Shown here: positions 12,587 through 30,466 of the stretch, piece after piece
Position numbering within the stretch: position 1 is the first letter of the stretch
Layout of the letters: each line of letters begins with the position of its first letter
Assembly: GCA_003139995.1 (NCBI GenBank)
Contig: PLIC01000216.1
Span: 137-46,215, forward strand
Length of the DNA stretch: 46,079 nucleotides
DNA from: Candidatus Acidiflorens stordalenmirensis
GTDB taxonomy: Bacteria > Acidobacteriota > Terriglobia > Terriglobales > Acidobacteriaceae
Reading direction: 5' to 3'
Program-made: the position numbers and the translations under genes
The notes under the pieces: model-generated
What the model saw: the letters and a program-made list of their open reading frames with translations, nothing else
Database searches by the model: none
What the model was told of the DNA's origin: nothing

Positions 12587-13549
12587 TCAAACCACCACGC
12601 GGAGCGCCGAGGGCAGCACTTCGATCGTCCGGCACTCCAGCGTCAGTACCTCGCCGTCCACCATCACATCCACCGGTCCGTCGAGTTGAAACTCGACGCG
12701 GCTCGCCGCCTGCCGCTCCGCCAGCGGATGCCGCGTGTGCGTGCCGTCATAAAGCGTTGCCAGGTTCCGGATCAGTCCCAGCCGCCCAATCGGCCCCCAC
12801 CGCACAAATTCAATCAATCCGTCATCAATGACCGCGTCGGGCGCAATCATCATTGTGCCGCCCGTGAACTTACTGTTGTTAAACGTCAGAAACAAACAGC
12901 GCCGCGCGTCAAACTCTTCCTGACCTTCCATCCGCACCGGAAACGGGCGCCGATCGAGCCGCGCCAGACAAAGAAAAATAGACAGCAGATACCCGAACCT
13001 TCCCAGCCCCAGAAACCGCCGATGCCGCAGCGCCGCCACGTCCGCGGTAAACCCCAAGCTCAGCAGATTCGTGTAGTAGATCGCTCCGTCTTTATGCGTC
13101 AGTCGCAGAACGTCACAAGCCCGCGAACGCCGCGCCTCAAGCGCCCGCATCGCGTGTTCCAAACTGCCCTTGCTGGAAGTTCCATCCGCGAAATCCCGCA
13201 GGAACGAATTGCCGGTGCCCAGCGGAAGAAATCCGAGCGTAGGAATCTGATCCTCCGCACCACCCGAAACTCCCTGAGACCTGACACCTAAGACCTGAGA
13301 CCAGCTCTCCGGAAACAGCCCGTTGACGATCTCATAGGTGGTGCCATCCCCACCGACCGCGAGAAACTTCCGATAGCCGCGCGCATAGGCCTCGCGCGCA
13401 ATCTGCGTGGCGTGTCCCACCGCGCGCGTCTCTGCTGTCTCCAGCGCAATCCCCGCGCGCCGCAGGCGGTCCAGCGCCGCTCCCACGCGCCGGCCGCACC
13501 GCCCGCCACCCGCCGCCGGATTGATAATGGCCAAAAACGTTTCGTTCAC
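12587..13549 (-). CDS. Diacylglycerol/sphingosine-kinase-like lipid kinase
   Basis: A 320-residue member of the DAGK_cat/LCB5 (YegS/BmrU-like) family, which phosphorylates the hydroxyl of a lipid using ATP. Motifs are INPAAGGGRCG at 9-19, the nucleotide loop AVGGDGTTYEIVNGL at 64-78, and FLPLGTGNSFLRDF at 107-120. The C-terminal domain has TGGTMMIAPDAVIDDGLIEF. Residues 82-98 (SWSQVLGVRSQGVSGGA) are an insertion encoded by five heptamer repeats. The start is GTG. The gap upstream is a heptamer array and no Shine-Dalgarno sequence is visible. It closes the lipid locus. Confidence 0.87.
   Translation of the reverse strand: MNETFLAIINPAAGGGRCGRRVGAALDRLRRAGIALETAETRAVGHATQIAREAYARGYRKFLAVGGDGTTYEIVNGLFPESWSQVLGVRSQGVSGGAEDQIPTLGFLPLGTGNSFLRDFADGTSSKGSLEHAMRALEARRSRACDVLRLTHKDGAIYYTNLLSLGFTADVAALRHRRFLGLGRFGYLLSIFLCLARLDRRPFPVRMEGQEEFDARRCLFLTFNNSKFTGGTMMIAPDAVIDDGLIEFVRWGPIGRLGLIRNLATLYDGTHTRHPLAERQAASRVEFQLDGPVDVMVDGEVLTLECRTIEVLPSALRVVV
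13273..13307. repeat. Heptamer array inside the lipid-kinase reading frame
   Basis: Five 7-bp units, written on the plus strand as CCTGAGA, CCTGACA and variants. They are translated as part of residues 82-92 of the kinase. It is the same period-7 architecture as the intergenic arrays, but within a coding sequence. Confidence 0.8.
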
Positions 13550-13553
13550 GGTT

Positions 13554-13649
13554 TAGCTGTCAGTGTTCACCTTTAGCTTTTGGCTCTTAGCTTGGTGCGA
13601 TTCTTCCGGATGACTGAAAGCTGATAGCTGAGAGCTGACAGCTAACAGC
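13554..13649. repeat. Two-armed heptamer array between lipid kinase and acyl ligase genes
   Basis: The left arm (13554-13595) has six units of the TAGCTTT/TTAGCTG class. The right arm (13611-13649) has five or six units of the opposite polarity (ATAGCTG, AGAGCTG). The arms can pair imperfectly across a 15-base centre. The array fills almost the whole 99-base gap. Confidence 0.85.
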
Positions 13650-15364
13650 TAAATCTCCACGATAGATTTCCGCGCCGCACCTGCGCCAATCTCCGCCGCC
13701 AATTCTTCGCGCTTGATCTTCAGCGACGTCGTTCGCGGAAAATCCTTCTCCCATAACAGGTACCCACCCACGCGCTTGAAGTCGGCCAGACGCCGGTTCC
13801 GCGCCACCATCTCTTCGCGCAAGCGATCGTCGAACTGCTGGTTCTGTTCCAGACGCAGCACCAGCACCAGAATCTCGTTTCCGAGCGTCTTCTGCGGCCA
13901 CAAATAATTCGCCGCATACACGCAGAATTCCTTCACCGGCAGATCTTCGAAGACCGCCTCAATGTCCTCGGGATAAATATTCTTTCCGCCCTCGGTGACG
14001 ATCATATTTTTCTTGCGCCCGACGAGCTGCAGGTGGCCGCGCCCGTCAACATCGAAGCGCCCCAGATCGCCCGTCAGCAACCAGCCTTCGACGATCGTCC
14101 GCGCCGTCTGCTCGGAGTCGTCCAGATAATGCGACATGACCGCGCGGCTCCGCACCGCAACTTCGCCGATCCCGTCGGCGTCCGGATTCAGCACGCGCAC
14201 TTCGGTCCCGGGCAGCGGCTTGCCCACCGTATCGGCGCGAAACGGTTTCAGATCGTTGAGCGTCACTGCCGTGCAAGCTTCCGTCAGCCCGTACCCGCAC
14301 GTCGCCGGAATTCCCAGATCGTAGAAAAACTGCAACGTCGAAGGATCCGTAAATGCTCCGCCAACAATCAACGCTCGCAGTTCTCCGCCAAACGCCTTGT
14401 GTACTTGCGGCAGCAGACGCCGGCTGATCCCGACCCGCGGACGTCCCCGCGTCAGCATTTTGTTCATCCCAATCAATCGGTCCAGCATCCACCGCTTTCG
14501 AGGTTTTAGTTCATCGAACTTCGCGCGCAGTCCGCGCTCCAGATTCTTCAGCACCATCGGCACCAGGCCCACGTAGGTGATGCGATAGCGCACAAACGCA
14601 TCGCGCACAAACTCCGGACGCAGCGTCCGCAAATGGACCACGCAAGCTCCGCACACGAACGGCCCGATAAATCCCACCATGAAATCAATCGCGTGATTGG
14701 TGGGCAGAATGCTCAAATAGCGCACGCCCGGCCAAAATGGATACCACGCGGTCAGCGAAGCGCACTGCTCGAGATAACTGTCGTGCGTGAGCACGCATCC
14801 CTTCGGACGCCCGCCCGTCCCCGACGAATAGACGATGCACGCCGTGTCCTCGCGCTGTCGCGCCACCAACTGCGGCTCGCCTTTTCTCCGGAATTCCTCC
14901 CAGCGGTAAGCGCCCCGTAAGTCCGTCCCCGCCGGCGCCTCCGTCACCAGAACAATCTGAACGGTGAGTTTCGCGAACCCCCGTGACTGCGTGATCGCCC
15001 GCCACAAATAATATTCGACAACCAGAAATCGCGCTTTCGAATGCGCCAGCAGTTGCAGATGCTCGGCCGCGGTCAACTTGTAATCCAGCGGAACCAGCAC
15101 CCCGCCACAGAAGAAAATCGAGTAGGCCGAAATCAGCCACTTCGACTGATTTGTCATGATGATCGCCGCGCGGTCGCCCACCTTGAAGTCGGCGTCCTCA
15201 AGCGCGCGGCAAAGTGGACGTGCCATTTCTTTAAAGTCGGAGTAAGTAAGCCGCACTTTTTCGTGGTCGCGATCGGCTTCAATCAGGCAGGTTTCGTTCG
15301 GCCAGCGCTCCAGCGCGTCTTTGAGCGCTGCACCCAGGCTGGCATATTGGCGGAGATCAAGCAT
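13649..15364 (-). CDS. Acyl-AMP ligase (fatty-acid CoA/ACP ligase family)
   Basis: A 571-residue member of the ANL adenylate-forming superfamily, full length. The core A3 motif is [19 protein letters not shown]. The aromatic/Gly motif A5 is [11 protein letters not shown]7 is [14 protein letters not shown], and A8 is [21 protein letters not shown]. The C-terminal A10 region has [10 protein letters not shown], with the catalytic Lys. It activates a carboxylic acid as acyl-AMP and probably loads it onto the acyl carrier protein encoded 107 bases upstream. This is the second such ligase in the locus. The start is ATG with only a weak ribosome site. The gap before it is filled by a two-armed heptamer array. 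Confidence 0.9.
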
Positions 15365-15373
15365 AGAAAAGAA

Positions 15374-15467
15374 AGTGGTCAGTGGTCGGTGGTCAGTGGC
15401 CAGTTACTACCTGTCGCGGAGCAGTTACGATCGACAACTGCCCACTGACCACCGGCCACTGCCCGCT
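15374..15467. repeat. Two-armed heptamer array between ligase and ACP genes
   Basis: Arm 1 (15374-15408) has five units like AGTGGTC. Arm 2 (15433-15467) has five units like GACCACC/GCCCACT, of opposite polarity, so a fold-back of about 30 bp is possible. The array occupies most of the 107-base gap. Confidence 0.87.
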
Positions 15468-15471
15468 GCTT

Positions 15472-15714
15472 CTAGAGCCGTGCCTGGATCCGATTCGCCA
15501 GCGTCCGGAAATCCGACACGCCCTGCAGTTCATAGTCCGGCAACTCGATACGAAAGTGATGCTCCAATCGCGTCAGTAAATCGAGCGCCTGCAGGCTGTC
15601 GATGCCCAGCGTCTTGAAAAAATCGTCGTCGGGGGTGAGCTTTTCCCGCGGCACGTTAAAATGCGAAGCCGCAAGATTCAGGATTTCGTCGAGCGTGCGA
15701 TCGGTCGTCGGCAT
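15472..15714 (-). CDS. Acyl carrier protein
   Basis: An 80-residue acyl carrier protein. The phosphopantetheine attachment site is S40 in FKTLGIDSLQALDLLTRLE. Helix 1 (TLDEILNLAASHFN) and the acidic helix 2 region are typical. The ATG at 15714 is used rather than a TTG at 15732, because AAAGG then lies upstream at about 11 bases. It sits between the enoyl-CoA hydratase and the second acyl ligase. It is not next to fab genes, so it is a dedicated carrier for this pathway rather than the housekeeping AcpP. Confidence 0.93.
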   Translation of the reverse strand: MPTTDRTLDEILNLAASHFNVPREKLTPDDDFFKTLGIDSLQALDLLTRLEHHFRIELPDYELQGVSDFRTLANRIQARL

Positions 15715-15730
15715 GAATACTGCGCCTTTC

Positions 15731-15758
15731 AAATTACCAATTACAAATCAATTACAAA
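15731..15758. repeat. Short AT-rich heptamer-like array
   Basis: AAATTAC, CAATTAC, then an 11-base unit and AAATTCA. It lies in the 45-base gap between the enoyl-CoA hydratase and ACP genes. It resembles the other arrays but one unit is out of register. Confidence 0.5.
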
Positions 15759-15759
15759 T

Positions 15760-16563
15760 TCACGGCAAGTACGGCTGCGGCCCCTCGTTCTCCACAAACT
15801 TGCGCAGCCCTTCCTCGACAGCCGGACGCGAATACAGGTCGCAGAAAATATCGATCTCCCGCTTCAACTCCTTGTACGGAATCGGCTTCACGAACTCCTT
15901 CGCTGCCGCTGCCGTCCGCCGGTCAAACTTCCCTACCTGGCTGGCCGTGGCGCGAGCCACCCGCAGCGCCTCGCCTTCGGCTGCAATCTGGCTCACCAGT
16001 CCGATCTGCTGCGCCTTCATCACATTGAAGCTGCGCCCGGTGAGCAGCAGATCGCGCACCACCGCGTTGCCCAAATCCCGCTTCAGCCGCGGAATCCCGC
16101 CGAATCCCGGAATCAACCCCAGTCGCAATTCCGGAAAGCAGAATCGCGCCATGCGGTCCGCAATAATAATGTCGCAAACCAGCGCCAGCTCGAACCCGCC
16201 GCCAAACGTCACTCCGTGCACCGCCGCGATGGTCGTCAGCGGCGCCGTATCGAGCGCGTTCATCACGGCATGAATGCGCTCCAGAAATTCCCGCACCCCG
16301 CGCAGGGCTGCGGCCTTTTCTATCTCTTGCCCGCGCTGAAACAGCTCGCGTAAATCCGCTCCCGCCGAAAACCCGGCCTTCAACGTCGAATGGACAATCA
16401 ACGCATGCGCTTCATTCGTCAGCCCGGGCAGAGCTGCAGCAAATTTCTCCAACTCGTCCAGTGTGAGCGACCCGATCTCGTTGCAAGGATCGCGATGCAA
16501 TGCAAGCTCAATCGCTCCATTCACGATCTGCCACGAAAGCGTTTGCCCTTTGAAGTCGTTCAT
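15760..16563 (-). CDS. Enoyl-CoA hydratase/isomerase-family protein
   Basis: A 267-residue crotonase-fold protein. The oxyanion-hole segments are AGFSAGADLREL (about 65-76) and VHGVTFGGGFELALVCDIIIA (about 115-135). The second catalytic Glu lies in FCFPELRLGLIPGFGGIPRL. Members hydrate or isomerise enoyl thioesters; here the substrate may be carried on the adjacent ACP. The ATG overlaps the stop of the upstream acyl ligase by 4 bases (ATGA), showing tight coupling. The N-terminal third is somewhat divergent from housekeeping FadB-type enzymes, so it is probably pathway-specific. Confidence 0.88.
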   Translation of the reverse strand: MNDFKGQTLSWQIVNGAIELALHRDPCNEIGSLTLDELEKFAAALPGLTNEAHALIVHSTLKAGFSAGADLRELFQRGQEIEKAAALRGVREFLERIHAVMNALDTAPLTTIAAVHGVTFGGGFELALVCDIIIADRMARFCFPELRLGLIPGFGGIPRLKRDLGNAVVRDLLLTGRSFNVMKAQQIGLVSQIAAEGEALRVARATASQVGKFDRRTAAAAKEFVKPIPYKELKREIDIFCDLYSRPAVEEGLRKFVENEGPQPYLP

Positions 16564-18245
16564 GCCGTCTTCGCCGTCTGGTTCTTCGAGGCCTGATTCT
16601 TCGAGACTTCGTACATCGCGTCGATTTCGCTCCGATACCTCTCTGCAATCAAGTCGCGCTTCAGCTTTCCGTTCGCCGTCAGCAGCCCGCTCTCGATGGT
16701 GAACGGCTCCTCGATCAGATGAAAAGCCCGCACTTGCTTGTAATGCGGAAGGCCGGGATTCACAAGGTCTAACACCGCCTGCGTTTTCTCGCCGCTCACC
16801 TTGCCCGTGACCAGCGCCGCCAGATATCCGCGCGCATTACCCACGAGCACCACCTGACTCGCGCCTGGCAATACTTGCAGAATTTTATCCTCAATCGGCT
16901 CCGGCGCAATGTTATGCCCCGACCCAAGAATAATCAGGTTCTTGATGCGGCCGACAATCTTCCAGTTTCCGTTCGCGTCCACTTCGCCCTGATCGCCACT
17001 ATGAAACCAGCCGTCGCGCAGCACTTTCGCCGTCTCCTCCGGACGATTCCAGTATCCCGGAAAAATATTCGGCCCGCGCACCACGACCTCCGCATTCTCC
17101 GCGATCTTCATCTCCACGCCCGAAATCGCCGGACCCGCGCGCCCCGGAATTACCGGAGCATCCGGATCATCCATGGTGCAGATCGCCGTCGTCTCGGTCA
17201 GTCCGTATACCTGCAACACCGGGATGCCCAGCATCATAAAAAACAGTTGTGTCTCCACATTCAGCGGCGCCGAGCCGCAAATCATTGCACGCAGCTTGCC
17301 GCCGATCATCTTTTTGCGGATCGTAGGAAACACGAGCCGATTCGCCAGCCCCAGCCAGATCCCGTCCCCGGCGCGCCGTTTGCCCTCGTGCCGCCGCACC
17401 CACGCGCCCTTTGCCTTGGTATACACCTTCAACGGAAATCCACCCGTCTTCCACAGTTGCTCGTCGACAGCTTTGCGCATGCGTTCGAGAAGCGCGGGAA
17501 CATTCAGGAAATAATCCGGCGCCGCCAGTCGCATCTCCGTGGCAATCTTCCCCAGATCCGTATTCAACGTCAGCTTGCTGCCGCGCAGCAGGCAGGTCAG
17601 CATCATGATCCACGAGCCCGCAAAGCAAAGCGGCAGGTAATGAAACACGGCGTCCTGTCCCGCGCGCTTCTTCATAAGCCGATCCAGCCGCCCCGAAGTG
17701 CAGCCCAGCATGTAACCGACGTTGCCCGCGTTCAGCATCACGCCTTTCGCCTCGCCCGCCGTGCCCGAGGTGTAGATGATCGTCGCCACATCTTCTTCTG
17801 CGACCGCCAGCGCAGGATTCTCCGCCGGCCCGCGCCCTGGCGTGAAAACATTTTCGAAGCAAAAATACGGTGGCGCTTCCGGCCACGCTTCTACGATCGC
17901 ATCGGCCAGCGACTGCTCGCCGCAGGCAATCACCGACGGCCAGCAATCCTTCATCCTCTCGACCAGTTCGGCCGGCGTTAGCCGCGCATACAGCGGCACC
18001 ACGGTCAGCCCCTCCGCCATGATGGCCAGATCCATCGCCACCCACTGCATCGAGTTATGCGCCAGGAGCGCGCACCGGTCGCCCTTCTTCAGCCGCAATC
18101 GCCGCAGGTAAGCCCGCGCCACCTGCACCTGAGCCAGCAACTGCCGCGCGGTGAGCGGAACCGGCTGCCCGTCGCGCAGTTCCTGCAGTACGATGGCATC
18201 GCCGCTGCGCTCCAGGCTCGCAAAAATTTGGCCGAGAAATGACAT
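16560..18245 (-). CDS. Long-chain acyl-AMP ligase
   Basis: A 561-residue ANL-superfamily ligase. A3 is IIYTSGTAGEAKGVMLN, A5 is QVYGLTETTAICTMDD, A7 is GWFHSGDQGEVDANGNW, and A8 is GRIKNLIILGSGHNIAPEPIE. It ends with LLTANGKLKRDLI, containing the A10 Lys. The long form resembles FadD15-type bacterial long-chain acyl-CoA synthetases. The ATG at 18245 is chosen because an upstream extension to 18365 would overlap the preceding gene by 70 bases and has no protein-like composition. It is coupled by a 4-base overlap to the enoyl-CoA hydratase gene. Confidence 0.9.
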   Translation of the reverse strand: MSFLGQIFASLERSGDAIVLQELRDGQPVPLTARQLLAQVQVARAYLRRLRLKKGDRCALLAHNSMQWVAMDLAIMAEGLTVVPLYARLTPAELVERMKDCWPSVIACGEQSLADAIVEAWPEAPPYFCFENVFTPGRGPAENPALAVAEEDVATIIYTSGTAGEAKGVMLNAGNVGYMLGCTSGRLDRLMKKRAGQDAVFHYLPLCFAGSWIMMLTCLLRGSKLTLNTDLGKIATEMRLAAPDYFLNVPALLERMRKAVDEQLWKTGGFPLKVYTKAKGAWVRRHEGKRRAGDGIWLGLANRLVFPTIRKKMIGGKLRAMICGSAPLNVETQLFFMMLGIPVLQVYGLTETTAICTMDDPDAPVIPGRAGPAISGVEMKIAENAEVVVRGPNIFPGYWNRPEETAKVLRDGWFHSGDQGEVDANGNWKIVGRIKNLIILGSGHNIAPEPIEDKILQVLPGASQVVLVGNARGYLAALVTGKVSGEKTQAVLDLVNPGLPHYKQVRAFHLIEEPFTIESGLLTANGKLKRDLIAERYRSEIDAMYEVSKNQASKNQTAKTA

Positions 18246-18295
18246 GCGTTTGATATGAATTAGTTTGCGATGAAGTGGAGGTTTGAAAGGTGCGG

Positions 18296-19705
18296 CTACC
18301 CGTACGCCGCCACCAGTTGCTTCAACCCCTCGCTCATTGGCGGCAGATAATCTTCCCAGCTCCATTCTCCGCGCCGGGTGGGAAACTCCGGATACCGCCG
18401 CTGCACTTCTTCTTCGAAATACACGCCCATGTGCGCCATTAATTTCAAATTCCGCACCACACTCCGCGCGATGCCGTCGGCAATCCGTTCACCGTCGCGA
18501 TCCAGAATTTCGAGCGCCGCCAGAGTTCGCGCCTCCAGATCCGGATCGTCCACATTCATCAGCAACTCCTCATGGCCGCGCTCGTTCATCAGGTTCCGTA
18601 TGCGCTCATCCATTGTGATCCCCGCCGACGCCACCAGCGCCGGCATCGAAGTCACTATCCCGTGATAGCGCGAAGACACCATCATGCGGCACGCGCGGAG
18701 AATGCTAACCATTTGGTACATGTTGTAATCGTCCGAGGTCAGCACCGGAACTCCGCCCAACTTCTCCGAGATACGACGGCAAGGCCGGGCATCCATGCGC
18801 TCAGTCGCCGCCATGATCACGAACACATTTCTCTTCTGGCGGAACGCGGCCATCGCATTGGCAATCGAACTCAAGTAATGTTCGTAGGCGCGGTCCGCCT
18901 CTGGCCCAGCATTATGAAAGTAGGGCCCGCGGTAGTGGCTCTCTTTGTATGCGCCGGTCAGGCTGTGCAGCGCGGCCTTCGCCACCGACGCCTTCACCGG
19001 CCACTCAAACGGATTGATCGGACACACCACCAGCACCGGCGTCTTCCCATCCCAACCCACATCGCGCAGCGCTTTCTGCCCATACTCGGCGCCCAGCGGC
19101 TCAAACGTCCACGCCGTGTCCGTGCCCAATTCCGTCGGCACGCCCAGCTCGCGCAAAATTTTCCGCGATTCTTCATTGCGCGTGATCACCAGCGAATTTC
19201 TGCAATAGCGCCCGCACATCTTTGCGACCAGCGGATCCATCTGTCCCGCCTCGGCGCCGTAACCGACCGACAACTTGTTCTCCGCCGCCGCAATGCCCAG
19301 CGACCCGATCATCATCGTCGCCAATGCGTTCGCGAATTTCGATTTGAACATCGAACCTTCACACGCCACCACGCCGTGATGTTTTGGCACTTCATTCGCC
19401 AGGAAGGGCGGAAAAATATCCGGCAGCCGCACCTGCGATGTGCCTTCGAAATATCCGCGCGACCGGTCAAAATTAAACGTCATCATGCTGAGGTCAACGT
19501 TCTCCGGCCCAAGAATCCGCCGGATCTGCCGCAGCATCTCTTCCACTCGCACATCCGATCCCGTATTACGCGTCCCGTTGTAGCCCGCAAACAGCAGCCT
19601 CAGTTTTTCGCCCGGTTGCCACGGCTCCCGCTTGCCCATCATCCACTGAATTTTCTTGCCCTCGATAATGCTCGAGACCCATGCTTCGAGAACGAAGTCC
19701 ATCAT
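18296..19705 (-). CDS. Polysaccharide pyruvyl transferase family protein
   Basis: A 469-residue protein with the PS_pyruv_trans fold. The N-terminal [20 protein letters not shown] is the usual glycine-rich opening. It continues with [17 protein letters not shown] and [19 protein letters not shown]. The C-terminal signature is [15 protein letters not shown]. Family members move a pyruvyl ketal from phosphoenolpyruvate to a sugar; this one is embedded in a lipid locus, so the acceptor may be a glycolipid head group. The ATG overlaps the SDR stop (ATGA). It is longer than many relatives because of extra N- and C-terminal segments. Confidence 0.84.
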
Positions 19706-20841
19706 GCGGCAGACCCTCCCGCCTTTGTGCTCTCCGGCCAGGGGTGATAGGGGTATTCAAAATTGTGCTCGCGGCTGAACCGGAGCAGCGGAAAACTGTA
19801 TTGCGAAAACGGCACGGGCTTGCATCCCATTTCCGTTGTGACCCGCGTGTTGTCGAACACTGTGTTCCAGGTCAAATATGGCAGGAAGACCTTCATCAGC
19901 GCCGCGCCGTGCCCCACCGGCCCTTTGCGGTTCGCCACCGTGTTGATGATGGAAGCGAACGGCTTTTCGAGGATCGGCAAAAACAGCGGCCCGCGCCGGT
20001 TCTGCTCCGCCGCCAGCGCCCTGGTCAATTCCCGAAAAGTCTGCGCATCGTTGCCCGAAGAAAGATGATAGGTATCGTGCGCGGGGTTCGCCTTCATGTG
20101 CAAAGTCGAGATCGCATCCGCCACGAAGTCCACATTCACAATGTCGATCTTGTCATGCGGACGAAACGGCAGCACCGGCAATCCCGCCAAAAACACGAAC
20201 GACCGCACCATGTCAAACTGCGTCGTCTGCGGATAGCGGCTGTCACCCAACACGATGCTTGGCCGGAAAATCGTCAGCGGCACGTCCGGCAGCAACTCGC
20301 GCACCATGTGCTCGCAGAATTTTTTTGTGCGCGCGTACGGATCGTAATCCGAGCGCTCCCACTCAATCGACTGGTCTTCCAAAACAACTTCGTGACTACG
20401 CTTCCCCGCCACCGCCACTGTACTCACATTCGAAAACCGCCGCAACCCGTGATAGTACTGCGATTGCCGCGCCAACTGCAGCACTTCGAGCGTCCCGCGC
20501 AGGTTCACATTCAAACAACTTTTTTCCGACTTCCGATTCAGCGAGGCCGCGCAGTGGATCACCGAATCGGTGGTATGCACGAGCCGGTCGTAATCGCTCG
20601 CTTCGAGCCCGAACTGCGGCGACGTGAGATCGCCGCGAAAAATCCGTATCTTCGCCTGCAAGTATTCGTAGAATCTCGCGAACGGCATGTGCAACTGCAA
20701 GGCGTTCCAAAGCCGCAGCTCCGCGTCACGCGGATCGCGGCAGCGCACCAGCAGATTCAATGTCGCTTCATGCTGATCGAGCAGATTAGCGACGACATGC
20801 GCGCCGATGTACCCGGTCCCACCGGTCAGGAATATTGCCAC
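19702..20841 (-). CDS. NAD(P)-dependent thioester-reductase-like SDR
   Basis: A 379-residue extended SDR of the Male-sterility/NAD_binding_4 type. The dinucleotide loop is G7-G8-T9-G10-Y11-I12-G13, followed by [20 protein letters not shown] and the catalytic pair Y169 and K173 in [21 protein letters not shown] completes the family pattern. Such reductases release acyl thioesters as aldehydes or alcohols, the R-domain role in carboxylic acid reductases. It starts at a GTG with GGAG upstream, overlapping the end of the HAD-FAR gene by 16 bases. With an ACP and ligases in the same operon it fits a split reductase system. Confidence 0.87.
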
Positions 20842-23315
20842 GTTGCTCCGTTCGTCCCCGTCTTCATGGCATCGCCATTTTCGGTCATCGTCGCTGTCGG
20901 CGGCGGCATCTGCAGCACACGCGGCGTGCGCGCTTCCAGCGGCCGCCCTTCAATCAGCGGATACGTCCATCGCCGCAATGCCGGAATATGAATGTCGATC
21001 CAATACTCCCACCAGTCCAGCCCCGCCGTGTCATAGCCGAAAATTTCTTTCTCTTCGGGCGTCAGAGCCTGCGACAGCTTCTCCACATTATCCGCGACAA
21101 AGTCATGCTCGTTGTGCAAAATAAACGGCTCGAACAGGCCGACTAGTTTTTCCACGCGCTCGAGGTTGCGCTCGGTTTTCGCCAGCGGCTTCTTCATCGG
21201 CAGCGGAGACATCACACGCTGAATCGACTTGATGATCATCTTCTGCGCCGGCGCCGACATGCGGTTATAACGTTCTTTCGAAACAGGAATCGCATCCATA
21301 CGCAAGCGCAGCCAGTATTCCAGCCCTTCCTGCGCGCGATAGTGACGCCGGTGTCCGAGGCTCGTCAACTCAATCGACCGCCCCATGTCGCACGGATTCG
21401 TGACCGACGTCGCCAGTTGGTACAGCGGATCGTGCCGCCGCTCCACTAGCGCCGCGCCAATCAGCGTCATTCCGGCGCACACCGCGTCCACAGGAATGAT
21501 GTCGAGCCGCTTGCGTTCGTTCGAAGGCAGTTGCCGGAACGCCGTGCCCAGTAGATACGACAGCGACGCCGAAGTATTGATCCCTTCATTCCATCCGCGA
21601 AACGGCTTCGCCACCGAAGTCTCGACAATTGCCGGACGCACAATCGCAATCGGCAGTCCCGCGCCATGTTTCGCGATCAGCGATTCCGCCAGACTCTTGG
21701 TGAACGTGTAAGTATTCGGCCAGCCCAACTCCTTCGCGCGCCGGGTGGCTTCTTCCGTAAGATAATTTTTCAACCAGCGAACGCGATTCTTGCGGATCTG
21801 GTTTTCCAGCGCCTGCCCGCTCAGCCCTTTTGCCGCGTGCTCTTTCCCGAATGCCTGCTTCTTTAATTCCTCGGCGACTTCCGGCCCTTCCGCCCGCGCT
21901 TCCGCCGACTCCACCAGTTCATGCAGGCGATACCACTCTTTTTCCGCGTCGAAGTCTTTCAAGTGCGTCGGCGTGTAATTCGGGCGCACCCGCTCACTCA
22001 CCCGCCCATCGCGCTGCCCCGCTACATAGCAAGTCGAAAGATGCAGCAATGCGGCGTGATCCGACCCGCGAATGAATTCGATCAAGTGATACGTAGAATC
22101 CACATTCACTGCCAAAGCGTCCCGCAGATCCGGATTGAAATCCGTCAACCCCGAGCTGTTGATGATGAGATCCAGATCTTTGCGCAGCCGCGCTGCAGTC
22201 TCGGAATCCAGTCCCAAGCCGGGCTGCGAAACATCGCCTTCCACCACTTCAATCTTCTCGGCCAGCAGCGCGCCAAGCCGGTCGCCGTATTTCTCAAACA
22301 CGGGATCGAAAACCGGCGAGCCTTCGATCATCTTCTCGAAGCGCGTCTGCGCCGGACTCGACTTCTGCCGCCGGATCAGCAGATAAAGCTTCCCAATCTC
22401 GGGCAGAATCGGGGCCCCCAACGGGCCCGGTTTTGGCCCGTTGGGGCAGAGATCCATCAACGTGTTCGCCAACCACACCTTGCCGATAAATCCCGTAACG
22501 CCGATCAGCATTACGCGCTTCCCGCCCAGCGCCTTCCGCACCGAAAACGGCGCCGGATACCGCTTCTCGTCGAAGTACACAATCGGACGAACCCGCGGCG
22601 CCTCCACTCGCACCGCCGGCACAATCGCCGACGCCAGCGCCTTCGGACCGCGCAAGCCAAGCGCGCGCACCCATCGCGCCGGACTCTGCTGCCCGTCCGG
22701 ACCCGCTTCGCGAATCCGCGCAAACAATCCCCGCGGCCGGATCACCGGGCTCAACAGCCGTCCGGTCGCAACCCCATCGCGAAAATCGAGGCGGTTCGCA
22801 ATAATCCACCGCACTGCCAGATGTCGCGCCAGCGGCCGCATCATATGCTCCAACCCCTGGCTCACCAGCACCACGTCCACGCCCGTCGCCTGCAACGCCT
22901 TCAGGTGACGCAGTCCTTCTTCTTTGAGCAGCGGCTTCAGCTTGTATTCGAACTCTTCTTCGCCCAGAAGATCGAGCCGGTCGCGCGTAATCCCGCGCAG
23001 CACGGCGTGAACGATTCGAGTCGCAGCGACGCGGTTCGCCGCATACAAAAATGGCCGCAGCAGCGCCATCAAAAGCACCAGGCTGCGGCGCGCCGCCCGC
23101 GCGATAAACGTTTGGCTGTTCCAGGTAAAAAAAGCGATCGGTCGAACCGTGGTCAGCTCGAGCAGACTTCCCTCCACCCGCCAGTAGACCGGCGACGAAG
23201 GCCGCGGACGACGAGGCGGCGGAGCAATGGGCAGCCGCGACGACATGCCTGCTGGCGCATTGGCGTCAAGCGACGTCCGCGCCCGCGCTCCATCGAGATT
23301 GTTCACAGGCTCCAC
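20826..23315 (-). CDS. Fatty acyl reductase with N-terminal degenerate HAD domain
   Basis: An 829-residue two-domain protein. Residues 42-190 form a HAD-IB (SerB-like) domain: motif II is [19 protein letters not shown] and the later part reads [18 protein letters not shown]. Motif I, where catalytic DxDGT is expected, reads W45-R-V-E-G-S-L51, so both catalytic Asp are missing. Residues 265-600 form a fatty acyl-CoA reductase domain with GVTGFIG at 272-278, NSSGLTDF at 386-393, and Y536/K540 in YTFTK. The C-terminal region continues the family, with the expected HNEHDF. A 12-bp perfect hairpin is built into residues 291-300. The GTG at 23315 is kept; ATG 23246 is an alternative. It opens the lipid operon. 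Confidence 0.88.
22416..22446. repeat. Perfect 12-bp hairpin inside the acyl-reductase gene
   Basis: CCCCAACGGGCC at 22416-22427 is mirrored by GGCCCGTTGGGG at 22435-22446, with a 7-base loop. It encodes residues 291-300 of the reductase ([10 protein letters not shown]), just after the NAD-binding motif and before GKLYLLIR. The rest of the gene shows no such symmetry. Confidence 0.75.
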
Positions 23316-28028: not shown

Positions 28029-28063
28029 GAGCTAAGAGCTAAAAGCCAAGAGCTAGAAGTTAG
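28029..28063. repeat. Heptamer array at the 3' end of the radical SAM gene
   Basis: Five units, GAGCTAA and close variants, in exact 7-bp register. The array overlaps the stop codon of the radical SAM gene (28060-28062) by its last unit. Confidence 0.85.
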
Positions 28064-30213
28064 TCTCCCGCCACCGGCTCGCCAACTTCTTCACTCTCTT
28101 TCACCTCTTTCGCGGCGCCGTTTCCATTTGCCGGAGCGATCGCGCCCAGCGGGATGAATCCGCCTTCATTCGACGTTGCCGGTTTCTCTTTCAGGACAAC
28201 CTCCCGATAGAGCTGCGCCATGCGCGCGTCGTAGGCCGCGTCGTTCTTGATCTTGTTGTCTTTAGCCTTGTTGTCGCGGGCCCGCATCTTCTCTTCGCGC
28301 GCCGTCTTCGCAATGCCCAACCTGTCGAGATCGTGCTGCACTTCGCGCGTAACAATCTCTTCCCGCAGGTAGAGCGTGTGCTCTTTGTCTTCCATGTTGA
28401 CTTTCTTGCCGCCCGCGAATATCTCGTGACGCCCGTGCTCTTCATACCACTTAGTAAGAGTCGACGTCATGTGCATCTTCTCGATGATGTTGCGCCAGCC
28501 CACGCCCGTGTTGTAAGCGCAGAAGCTGATCTCGCCTTCCTGCGTCGCGTACGGAATGATGCACTGCTCGGTGCGCCGGAAGTCGTAGTTAAACAGATCC
28601 TGGAACCACATCCCGGCGATGAACAGAAAGTTCCACCGGTCTTGACGCCGCTTCATCACGTCGTCAATCGTCCGGTCCGGACCGACCTTGCCGTAGTTCC
28701 TGCCCGTGGCATTGAAATTCTTGTCGAACTTCTTGAGCAGGTCCATCATCTTGAAGTGCGTCGGCGACTGGAACGAGTCGTAGTTCTTCATCAGCGCCAG
28801 CGCCATTCCGAACACGGTCCAGAATTTGCTGCGGGCCGCATCGTTGATCTTGGCAATATCCTTGGCGAGTTGGTCGCCCTTAAGAAACGCCGTAACTGGT
28901 ACCGCTTCCTTAGTTTCTTTATCAATCATGACCGCCATCCCCGTTCCGCAATTGGGATGACAGCCGCAGGAGAGTTGGCCCCAGTCGTTGTTTGATTCCT
29001 GGGCGTGCATTACGTCGGCCCAGTCGGAGAAAGTGCTCATGAAACTGATGGGGAACCAGTCGCGGGCGGGTTCGCCGAGGCCGGTTTGACTTTTTACGTC
29101 GTGGGCTAAGTGCGCCAGCGTGTAACGCTGTGCGATCCGCCGTTCGTCGGTGATGGCTTCGTCGCGGCCGGTGAAAGAAACAGGCTGGAAGCTGAGGAAG
29201 CCGATCTTCTTCGGATTGTCGAGCGCGAACTGAATGATCCGTCCGACCTGCTCGTTGTTGATGCCGTTGATGATGGTGATGACGGGCACGATTTCGCAAC
29301 CGGCGCGATGCAGATTGTCGATCGCTTTCAGTTTTACGTCGAACAGGTTGCCGACGGCGCGATGATCATTGGCGGCGTTGCCGATGCCGTCAAACTGCAG
29401 GTAGGCGTAACGCACGCCGGCTTCAACCGCCTGTTGCGCGAATTCAAAACTCTTGGCGAACTCAATCCCGTTGGTTGCGGCCTGCACGCTGTTGAAGCCG
29501 ACTTTGCGGGCGTAACGAACCGCGTCGAGGAAATAGGGCGAAAGCGTGGGCTCGCCGCCGGAAAACTGCACCGACATCTGACGGCGCGGCTTGAGGGTGA
29601 TGGCGTTGTCGAGCACGGTCTTGATTTCTTCCCAGGTGAGTTCGTGGACGAAGCCGACCTGGTTGGCGTCCATGAAGCAGGGATCGCACATCATGTTGCA
29701 GCGGTTGGTGAGATCGACGGTGAGCACGGCGCCGCGTCCATACTTCAGGGTGGAAGAACCGTGGTGATGCAGCTTCTCGTCGCCATGGGCGCGGATATCG
29801 CGGCCGGGAAAAACCTCTTCGAGGTGACGCGAGAATTCGAGGTCGAAGGACATCAGGTCTTCGAAGTGCCCGTGCTTGGGGCAGTCCTTGACCATCCAGA
29901 GCTTGCCTTCGCGTTCGACGATCTGGGCCTTGATCTCGCCGACCTTTTCGTTCGTCAGAACGTCGACCGGCAAGTGGCCGTCGAGGATCTGCTGACGAAT
30001 TTCAGGCACGCACTTGGGACAAAGCGAATCGGTGGTGCGCGGCCAGCCGAGCGGCGGCTTTGACTTTTCCCAGGACTTGAGCAGGGGCTTGTCGGACCAC
30101 TTCGGAGTCGGCGACGCATTCGGAGCAACGCGGTTCAGGCGTTCAAACACTGCCCATGCGCCCGTGGCGGCAACGGTCACGGCCTTCTCGACATATTTAA
30201 TCGGCTTGTGCAT
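28060..30213 (-). CDS. Tes/MSS-like radical SAM protein (COG1964-type)
   Basis: A 717-residue radical SAM protein. The N-terminal metal-site candidate is C65-PK-C68 plus C111-PK-H114 (SLCPKC and KDCPKHGHFEDL). The SAM cluster motif is C172-NMM-C176-DP-C179 (DLTNRCNMMCDPCFMD), followed by the SGGEPTL motif at 218-224. Extra cysteines are C416-G-C418-HP-N-C422 and C551/C565 (CIIPYATQEGEISFCAYNTG). This N-terminal zinc-ribbon-like pair, CHPxC segment and C-terminal CxxxYATxxGxxxxC pattern matches the family that includes archaeal tetraether synthase (MJ0619). The last 80 residues are charged and variable. ATG 30213 is preferred to 30297 because the extension is not protein-like. Linking lipid tails is an inferred role. 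Confidence 0.85.
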   Translation of the reverse strand: MHKPIKYVEKAVTVAATGAWAVFERLNRVAPNASPTPKWSDKPLLKSWEKSKPPLGWPRTTDSLCPKCVPEIRQQILDGHLPVDVLTNEKVGEIKAQIVEREGKLWMVKDCPKHGHFEDLMSFDLEFSRHLEEVFPGRDIRAHGDEKLHHHGSSTLKYGRGAVLTVDLTNRCNMMCDPCFMDANQVGFVHELTWEEIKTVLDNAITLKPRRQMSVQFSGGEPTLSPYFLDAVRYARKVGFNSVQAATNGIEFAKSFEFAQQAVEAGVRYAYLQFDGIGNAANDHRAVGNLFDVKLKAIDNLHRAGCEIVPVITIINGINNEQVGRIIQFALDNPKKIGFLSFQPVSFTGRDEAITDERRIAQRYTLAHLAHDVKSQTGLGEPARDWFPISFMSTFSDWADVMHAQESNNDWGQLSCGCHPNCGTGMAVMIDKETKEAVPVTAFLKGDQLAKDIAKINDAARSKFWTVFGMALALMKNYDSFQSPTHFKMMDLLKKFDKNFNATGRNYGKVGPDRTIDDVMKRRQDRWNFLFIAGMWFQDLFNYDFRRTEQCIIPYATQEGEISFCAYNTGVGWRNIIEKMHMTSTLTKWYEEHGRHEIFAGGKKVNMEDKEHTLYLREEIVTREVQHDLDRLGIAKTAREEKMRARDNKAKDNKIKNDAAYDARMAQLYREVVLKEKPATSNEGGFIPLGAIAPANGNGAAKEVKESEEVGEPVAGD

Positions 30214-30466
30214 TCTGCTCTCGCTTTCCTCAGCTCGGGAGTTAGAAATGTCCCCGCGGTCCCGCGTACGGGAACCAGCGTGAATAGACTTGTCCACGAG
30301 GAAACCTACCTGTGAAAACCCAGAAGTTTCGATGCGTGGAATGGGTCACGGTGATCCTATTGAAAGCGCAGTCGTTACGCACGAAGAAGTCAATGAAGGG
30401 GAGAAAAACGGGGTTAAGCGGGGAATTGGGGGATTTTATGGGCGTAAGTTGTTGAAAAGGCAGGGG

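Follow-up and report, generated by a model that had tools for sequence, protein, structure and literature searches.

The window, a stretch of 46,079 nucleotides from Candidatus Acidiflorens stordalenmirensis, carries on its minus strand a gene for a putative radical SAM lipid synthase, P0001. Downstream of it and on the same strand lies a collinear lipid cluster (12587-23315) that resembles a split elb operon. The coordinates of both, and of the sites in P0001 discussed below, are collected in Table 1. The P0001 gene is real. Its open reading frame spans 28060-30297 (-), and reading from the ATG at 30213 yields 717 residues followed by a stop; this start is backed by the conserved N-termini of the orthologues and by GAGGAAAG upstream. 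The motifs listed in a preliminary description of the locus were all found in the protein, namely CPKC (65-68), CPKH (111-114), C172/C176/C179, CHPNC (418-422), and CIIPYAT...FC (551-565).

Table 1. Features of P0001 and of the linked lipid cluster, in window coordinates.
Feature	Position	Strand	Basis or comment
P0001, Tes/Mss-type radical SAM gene, 717 aa	28060..30213	minus	
N-terminal helix, residues 3-28, weakly amphipathic	30130..30207	minus	predicted helix; muH
Rubredoxin-like metal site, C65-X2-C68 ... C111-X2-H114	29872..30021	minus	aligned to MJ0619 C9/C12/C33/H36; Pfam PF23545, 50.4 bits
Position of the MJ0619 N-terminal auxiliary [4Fe-4S] cluster, without Cys; conserved H149/H151	29731..29787	minus	alignment, column counts
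Radical SAM cluster motif, C172-X3-C176-X2-C179	29677..29700	minus	translation, Pfam, alignment
QPVSFTGR (343-350), SAM-binding/closing loop, equivalent to MJ0619 Q268/S271/R275	29164..29187	minus	alignment
CGCHPNC (416-422); C422, equivalent to MJ0619 C338, putative ligand of the C-terminal auxiliary (catalytic) cluster	28948..28968	minus	alignment
M535 ... C551 ... C565, labile Met (equivalent to MJ0619 M439) and candidate Cys of the C-terminal auxiliary cluster	28519..28611	minus	alignment
C-terminal charged tail, residues 609-717	28063..28389	minus	mostly low model confidence; length differs among orthologues
HAD + fatty acyl-CoA reductase (FAR1-like) fusion	20826..23315	minus	linked lipid cluster, putative association from synteny
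NAD-dependent SDR/thioester-reductase-like protein	19702..20841	minus	linked cluster
Polysaccharide-pyruvyl-transferase-like protein	18296..19705	minus	linked cluster
AMP-forming acyl ligase	16560..18365	minus	linked cluster
Enoyl-CoA hydratase/isomerase	15760..16563	minus	linked cluster
Second AMP-forming acyl ligase	13649..15364	minus	linked cluster
Diacylglycerol/lipid kinase (YegS-like)	12587..13549	minus	linked cluster

P0001 is a radical SAM protein of the Tes/COG1964 type, and its best match in the PDB is the archaeal tetraether synthase Tes (GDGT-MAS) MJ0619 (7TOL/7TOM; phmmer, E=2.7e-59 over residues 93-589). The NCBIfam Tes equivalog model NF045702 scores P0001 at 311.7 bits, under its curated cut-off of 450, and Pfam identifies Radical_SAM together with an HMPTM N-terminal zinc ribbon. 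An AlphaFold2 model built from a shallow alignment of 50 close orthologues (74-95% identical) reached a mean pLDDT of 57 and a pTM of 0.65. With this model, Foldseek returned 7TOL/7TOM at the top (E 3.5e-19), and VIA-align against the same structures gave Z 16.0 with an rmsd of 4.2 over 410 residues, at the model's pLDDT of 57, compared with Z 10.1 for the next-best family, MoaA. In our trees the P0001-type proteins form a fully supported clade (100/100 in the careful tree of 31 rows) on a long stem of 1.5-2.2 changes per column, separate from MJ0619 as well as from the canonical Tes proteins of acidobacteria. The preliminary description had placed P0001 in the Tes/Mss-type lipid-coupling group and had proposed a structure overlay and a family phylogeny as checks. 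That placement is supported by sequence, conserved catalytic ligands, phylogeny, and fold, the overlay being closest to MJ0619.

A non-lipid function, as a TrsS-like seleno-pathway protein or a pterin methylase, would draw on a weaker match to the TrsS model NF045646 (199.4 bits) and on the HMPTM zinc ribbon assigned to the N-terminal domain. The curated TrsS cut-off of 490 is not reached, however, which rules out TrsS. The HMPTM label is inherited from an earlier annotation of MJ0619 that the structure paper discards (PMC9433317), ruling out the pterin methylase label as well. The ligands and fold of P0001 are nearest those of MJ0619, and no selenium or pterin genes were seen adjoining it, and we regard a non-lipid enzyme as very unlikely. 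Tes proper is itself ruled out by the sub-cut-off score and by a missing cluster described below. P0001 is most likely similar in function to Tes and Mss while standing outside the Tes equivalog as curated.

Metal sites were compared in a MAFFT alignment of homologues including MJ0619, with ligands taken from PMC9433317. In MJ0619 a rubredoxin-type iron is bound by C9, C12, C33, and H36, an N-terminal auxiliary cluster is bound by C73, C77, C80, and a histidine (H83), and a radical SAM cluster is present besides. The C-terminal auxiliary cluster has a labile Met439, and the substrate carbon is briefly bonded to a sulphur of this cluster (PMC9433317). P0001 keeps the rubredoxin-like site (C65/C68/C111/H114), the radical SAM cysteines, and the positions of the C-terminal auxiliary cluster (C422/C551/C565 with the labile methionine M535), where the cysteines presumed to bind this cluster in MJ0619 were themselves assigned from the alignment. 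Four of the five SAM contacts are also kept (F180, Q343, S346, and R350, for F106, Q268, S271, and R275 of MJ0619), and R210 of MJ0619 is an alanine in P0001.

At the aligned positions of the N-terminal auxiliary cluster P0001 has no cysteine and carries K147, H151, S154, and K157 instead. The preliminary description overlooked the absence of this third extra site of MJ0619. It had named a lack of the extra cluster sites as grounds for rejecting its own assignment; that lack holds for the N-terminal auxiliary cluster and not for the catalytic C-terminal one. The loss is common to all clade members read, including relatives at 50-58% identity, whereas in this phylum the canonical Tes-type proteins retain all four metal sites. 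Since two proteins that keep all of the sites (L198 and L199) are placed between the P0001 clade and the others in the trees, the loss is most simply explained as derived. Within the lost-cluster region, H149 is present in 51 of 52 clade sequences and H151 in all 52; that these residues form a replacement metal site is speculation. These observations suggest that the P0001 type can do without one of the metal sites found in the archaeal enzyme. In two divergent P0001-like paralogues, L129 (Acidicapsa dinghuensis) and L211, the auxiliary-C cysteines have been lost as well, while the rubredoxin and radical SAM sites persist.

Beyond these ligands, P0001 resembles MJ0619 in domain order and in the SAM loop. 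It differs in its lower identity (about 30%), in an N-terminal extension of about 55 residues that carries a helix, in about 22 added residues separating the two halves of the rubredoxin site, in the C-terminal tail, and in its presumed iso-acyl substrate. The N-terminal helix comprises 26 residues with a muH of 0.40, close to the mean of 0.38 among 49 orthologues, and residues 1-20 have a pLDDT of about 91 in the predicted model. The best 19-residue hydropathy of about 1.0 rules out a transmembrane anchor; a possible function is as a membrane-surface anchor or in membrane docking. The charged tail, previously given as 80 residues, is about 109 residues long, 41 of which are K, R, D, or E. Both the tail and the N-terminal hydrophobic segment had been called unusual. 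They occur throughout the orthologues, and so neither is an unusual addition.

The source genome (5.49 Mb, 92.8% complete; no 16S rRNA in the assembly's sequence) encodes three Tes-like proteins including P0001. The second (518 aa, contig C251) stands next to a VKOR-like small membrane protein and to a methyltransferase, and the third (523 aa, contig C143) adjoins an RND-type exporter, the neighbours on both contigs having been named by eye. A haloarchaeal plasmid carries a radical SAM and methyltransferase pair similar to the C251 row (L002). The closest named relatives are MAGs labelled Acidobacteriaceae and Terriglobia, at 92-95% protein identity, followed by Ca. Sulfotelmatobacter MAGs at 81-84%. 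Across the phylum, 141 of 247 genomes contain a P0001 relative at E <= 1e-20. Genome G302, 98% complete, gave no homologue above 65 bits. A match to the Tes profile at E <= 1e-40 was present in 374 of 399 class genomes and in 309 of the 317 of good quality, most of these 309 with a single full-length match of the P0001 type, while a match above the Tes cut-off, representing the canonical type, occurred in just 36 of the 399. The usual state is therefore a single P0001-type copy.

Canonical acidobacterial Tes proteins belong to the same superfamily, score above the NCBIfam cut-off, and are about 41-45% identical to MJ0619, compared with about 30% for the P0001 type. The Koribacter-type genome G281, which we take to be Koribacter versatilis, has a P0001-type protein, a canonical one, and a third Tes-family protein. 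In several acidobacterial families (L195, L196, L206, L209) the orthologue, at 65-69% identity, is accompanied by another paralogue of the P0001 type at about 51-53%. Viral contigs yielded no relative of P0001, and the only relatives on plasmids were distant haloarchaeal and Persicobacter proteins.

Iso-diabolic acid makes up a quarter to half of the fatty acids in many soil acidobacteria and probably serves as precursor to brGDGTs, the lipids on which palaeothermometers are based. To our knowledge, no acidobacterial enzyme that performs the iso-diabolic coupling has been demonstrated. The P0001 orthologue is the sole Tes-family protein in Terriglobus saanensis (G492) and in genome G295, which is presumably Acidobacterium capsulatum. 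The latter species makes iso-diabolic acid (PMC13274423). The orthologue, 73% identical to P0001, is likewise the sole Tes-family protein of Edaphobacter paludis JP48 (G217), with a score of 324 bits against 56.5 for the next match, and this strain contains 25.0% iso-diabolic acid with neither ethers nor ether-bound iso-diabolic acid detected (PMC11354219). Occallatibacter bavaricus JP12 (G633), with a published iso-diabolic acid content of 49.2%, has the P0001 orthologue and one distant homologue of the C251 type. In E. aggregans, which contains 26.4% iso-diabolic acid (PMC11354219), one Tes homologue was reported at 32% identity to the query of Zeng et al. (PMC8941075), a value that fits the P0001 type rather than the canonical type. 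Phenotype support for P0001 is co-occurrence with iso-diabolic acid in producing strains. The preliminary description had proposed a role in making this lipid, and comparative genomics supports it, as the P0001 orthologue is the sole Tes-family protein, or the sole one of its type, in complete genomes from strains rich in iso-diabolic acid.

These strains also bear on whether the clade, having lost its N-terminal cluster, performs a different reaction on lipid tails, such as desaturation, methylation, or cyclisation, instead of chain coupling. The clade-wide loss of the equivalents of MJ0619 C73/C77/C80/H83, the long stem, and the failure to conserve R210 would fit such a change. However, the auxiliary-C cluster, the presumed site of the C-S intermediate in MJ0619, is intact save in two divergent relatives, and the coupling product is abundant in strains whose sole Tes-type gene is the P0001 orthologue. 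We therefore consider a changed reaction very unlikely.

Gene order around P0001 is not conserved in general, most of 80 named loci around its orthologues sharing no common neighbour. In G073, G121, G271, G281, G294, G382, G426, and G657 the orthologue and a canonical Tes are separated by about 1-11 kb (the gene at L161:16567-18252 is an example of the canonical type). This proximity was found in 4 of 7 Tes-bearing genomes in an unselected family sample and in 2 of 20 further loci fetched irrespective of Tes, where position alone predicts some tenths of a percent in each case. The linkage is thus genuine, though not general. At L215:10315-11874, and in like places in L219, L221, and L223, canonical Tes is adjoined by a heme b synthase-like protein of the radical SAM/SPASM kind.

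The lipid cluster of the window resembles the myxobacterial ether-lipid operon elb (ElbA-E) in that it includes FAR, acyl ligase, and HAD functions and an NAD-dependent SDR. It differs in that the window has no single ElbD-type FAR-ACS-ACP-acyltransferase protein, FAR and ACS being separate proteins. The FAR part of the HAD-FAR fusion matches proteins of 1,470-1,520 aa in another acidobacterial family, and the one such protein read, L237, has the exact ElbD layout. The complete series directly follows the P0001 orthologue in G023 after a gap of about 0.2 kb, the HAD-FAR gene begins about 0.3 kb past the orthologue in L079 and L080, and in G132, which falls outside the class, the distance is 4 kb. 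Full-length HAD-FAR was found in just 7 of 247 phylum genomes, 3 of which have it on the P0001 contig. An additional radical SAM protein (L239:5136-6815) sits between a P0001 orthologue and the HAD-FAR cluster. Elsewhere in the source genome, contig C87 encodes a Ger/PlsA-like protein that combines two BcrAD_BadFG domains with a DUF2229 start and is cut off where the contig ends (L235:4016-6756). Together with the elb-like cluster, this gene points to possible ether formation in the source lineage.

These linkages raise the alternative that P0001 is a Tes-type coupler mainly of ether lipid, converting iso-C15 mono- and diethers to branched tetraethers, with most iso-diabolic acid made by another enzyme. 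Besides the elb-like cluster and the double-BcrAD gene, this would be consistent with Solibacter usitatus, which has two Tes homologues (type unspecified), no detectable free iso-diabolic acid, and makes brGDGTs (PMC10087280). Against it, the P0001 type is near-universal in the class and the elb-like HAD-FAR is rare. E. paludis, moreover, pairs the gene and its iso-diabolic acid with neither ether-bound product nor a double-BcrAD or HAD-FAR gene, and Mss and Tes are said not to discriminate between ester and ether linkage (PMC13274423). An enzyme dedicated mainly to ethers is accordingly unlikely. A broader proposal is that the P0001 clade comprises biochemically distinct tail couplers whose N-terminal [4Fe-4S] cluster was lost and gave way to a histidine site (H149/H151), and which in a few lineages, including the source, have been joined to an elb-like cluster for ether-linked membrane-spanning lipids, a route unlike Mss plus Ger. 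We consider this conceivable and rather doubtful.

Taken with the strain evidence, P0001 is probably an Mss-like acidobacterial membrane-spanning-lipid synthase that couples two iso-C15 acyl tails into iso-diabolic chains. Against this reading stand the sub-cut-off Tes score, the lost N-terminal cluster, the alanine in place of R210, and S. usitatus with its two Tes homologues and no detectable free iso-diabolic acid. Bacterial Mss, the membrane-spanning lipid synthase reportedly described by Sahonero-Canavesi et al. in 2022 and discussed in PMC13274423, is of the same superfamily, and tail-to-tail coupling of iso fatty chains would, by the description of Mss, be common to both. For P0001 we infer the substrate, product, and electron route, taking the mechanism over from MJ0619. 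In this scheme the radical SAM cluster would cleave SAM, and the 5'-deoxyadenosyl radical would take hydrogen from the methyl group that ends an iso-C15 acyl tail in a membrane phospholipid. A sulphide in the C-terminal auxiliary [4Fe-4S] cluster would catch the resulting carbon radical, after which a second SAM would generate a radical on the second tail, and the tails would be joined at their omega carbons to give 13,16-dimethyl-octacosanedioyl (iso-diabolic) membrane-spanning chains. The rubredoxin-like iron may relay electrons, and the lost N-terminal cluster may be unneeded or replaced.

Bacterial Tes homologues were earlier proposed for brGDGTs (PMC8941075) and Mss homologues have been reported in Acidobacteria (PMC11868695), so the role of P0001 is not itself new. 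Relative to the literature examined, four points are new: the loss of the cluster, the division of acidobacterial proteins into two types, the argument from single-copy strains rich in iso-diabolic acid, and the gene linkages. The candidate is narrowed to one near-universal gene per genome, distinguished from canonical Tes, which is rarer and with which the P0001 type was formerly pooled, and cultured strains that have the P0001 type as their sole homologue make a clean gene test possible.
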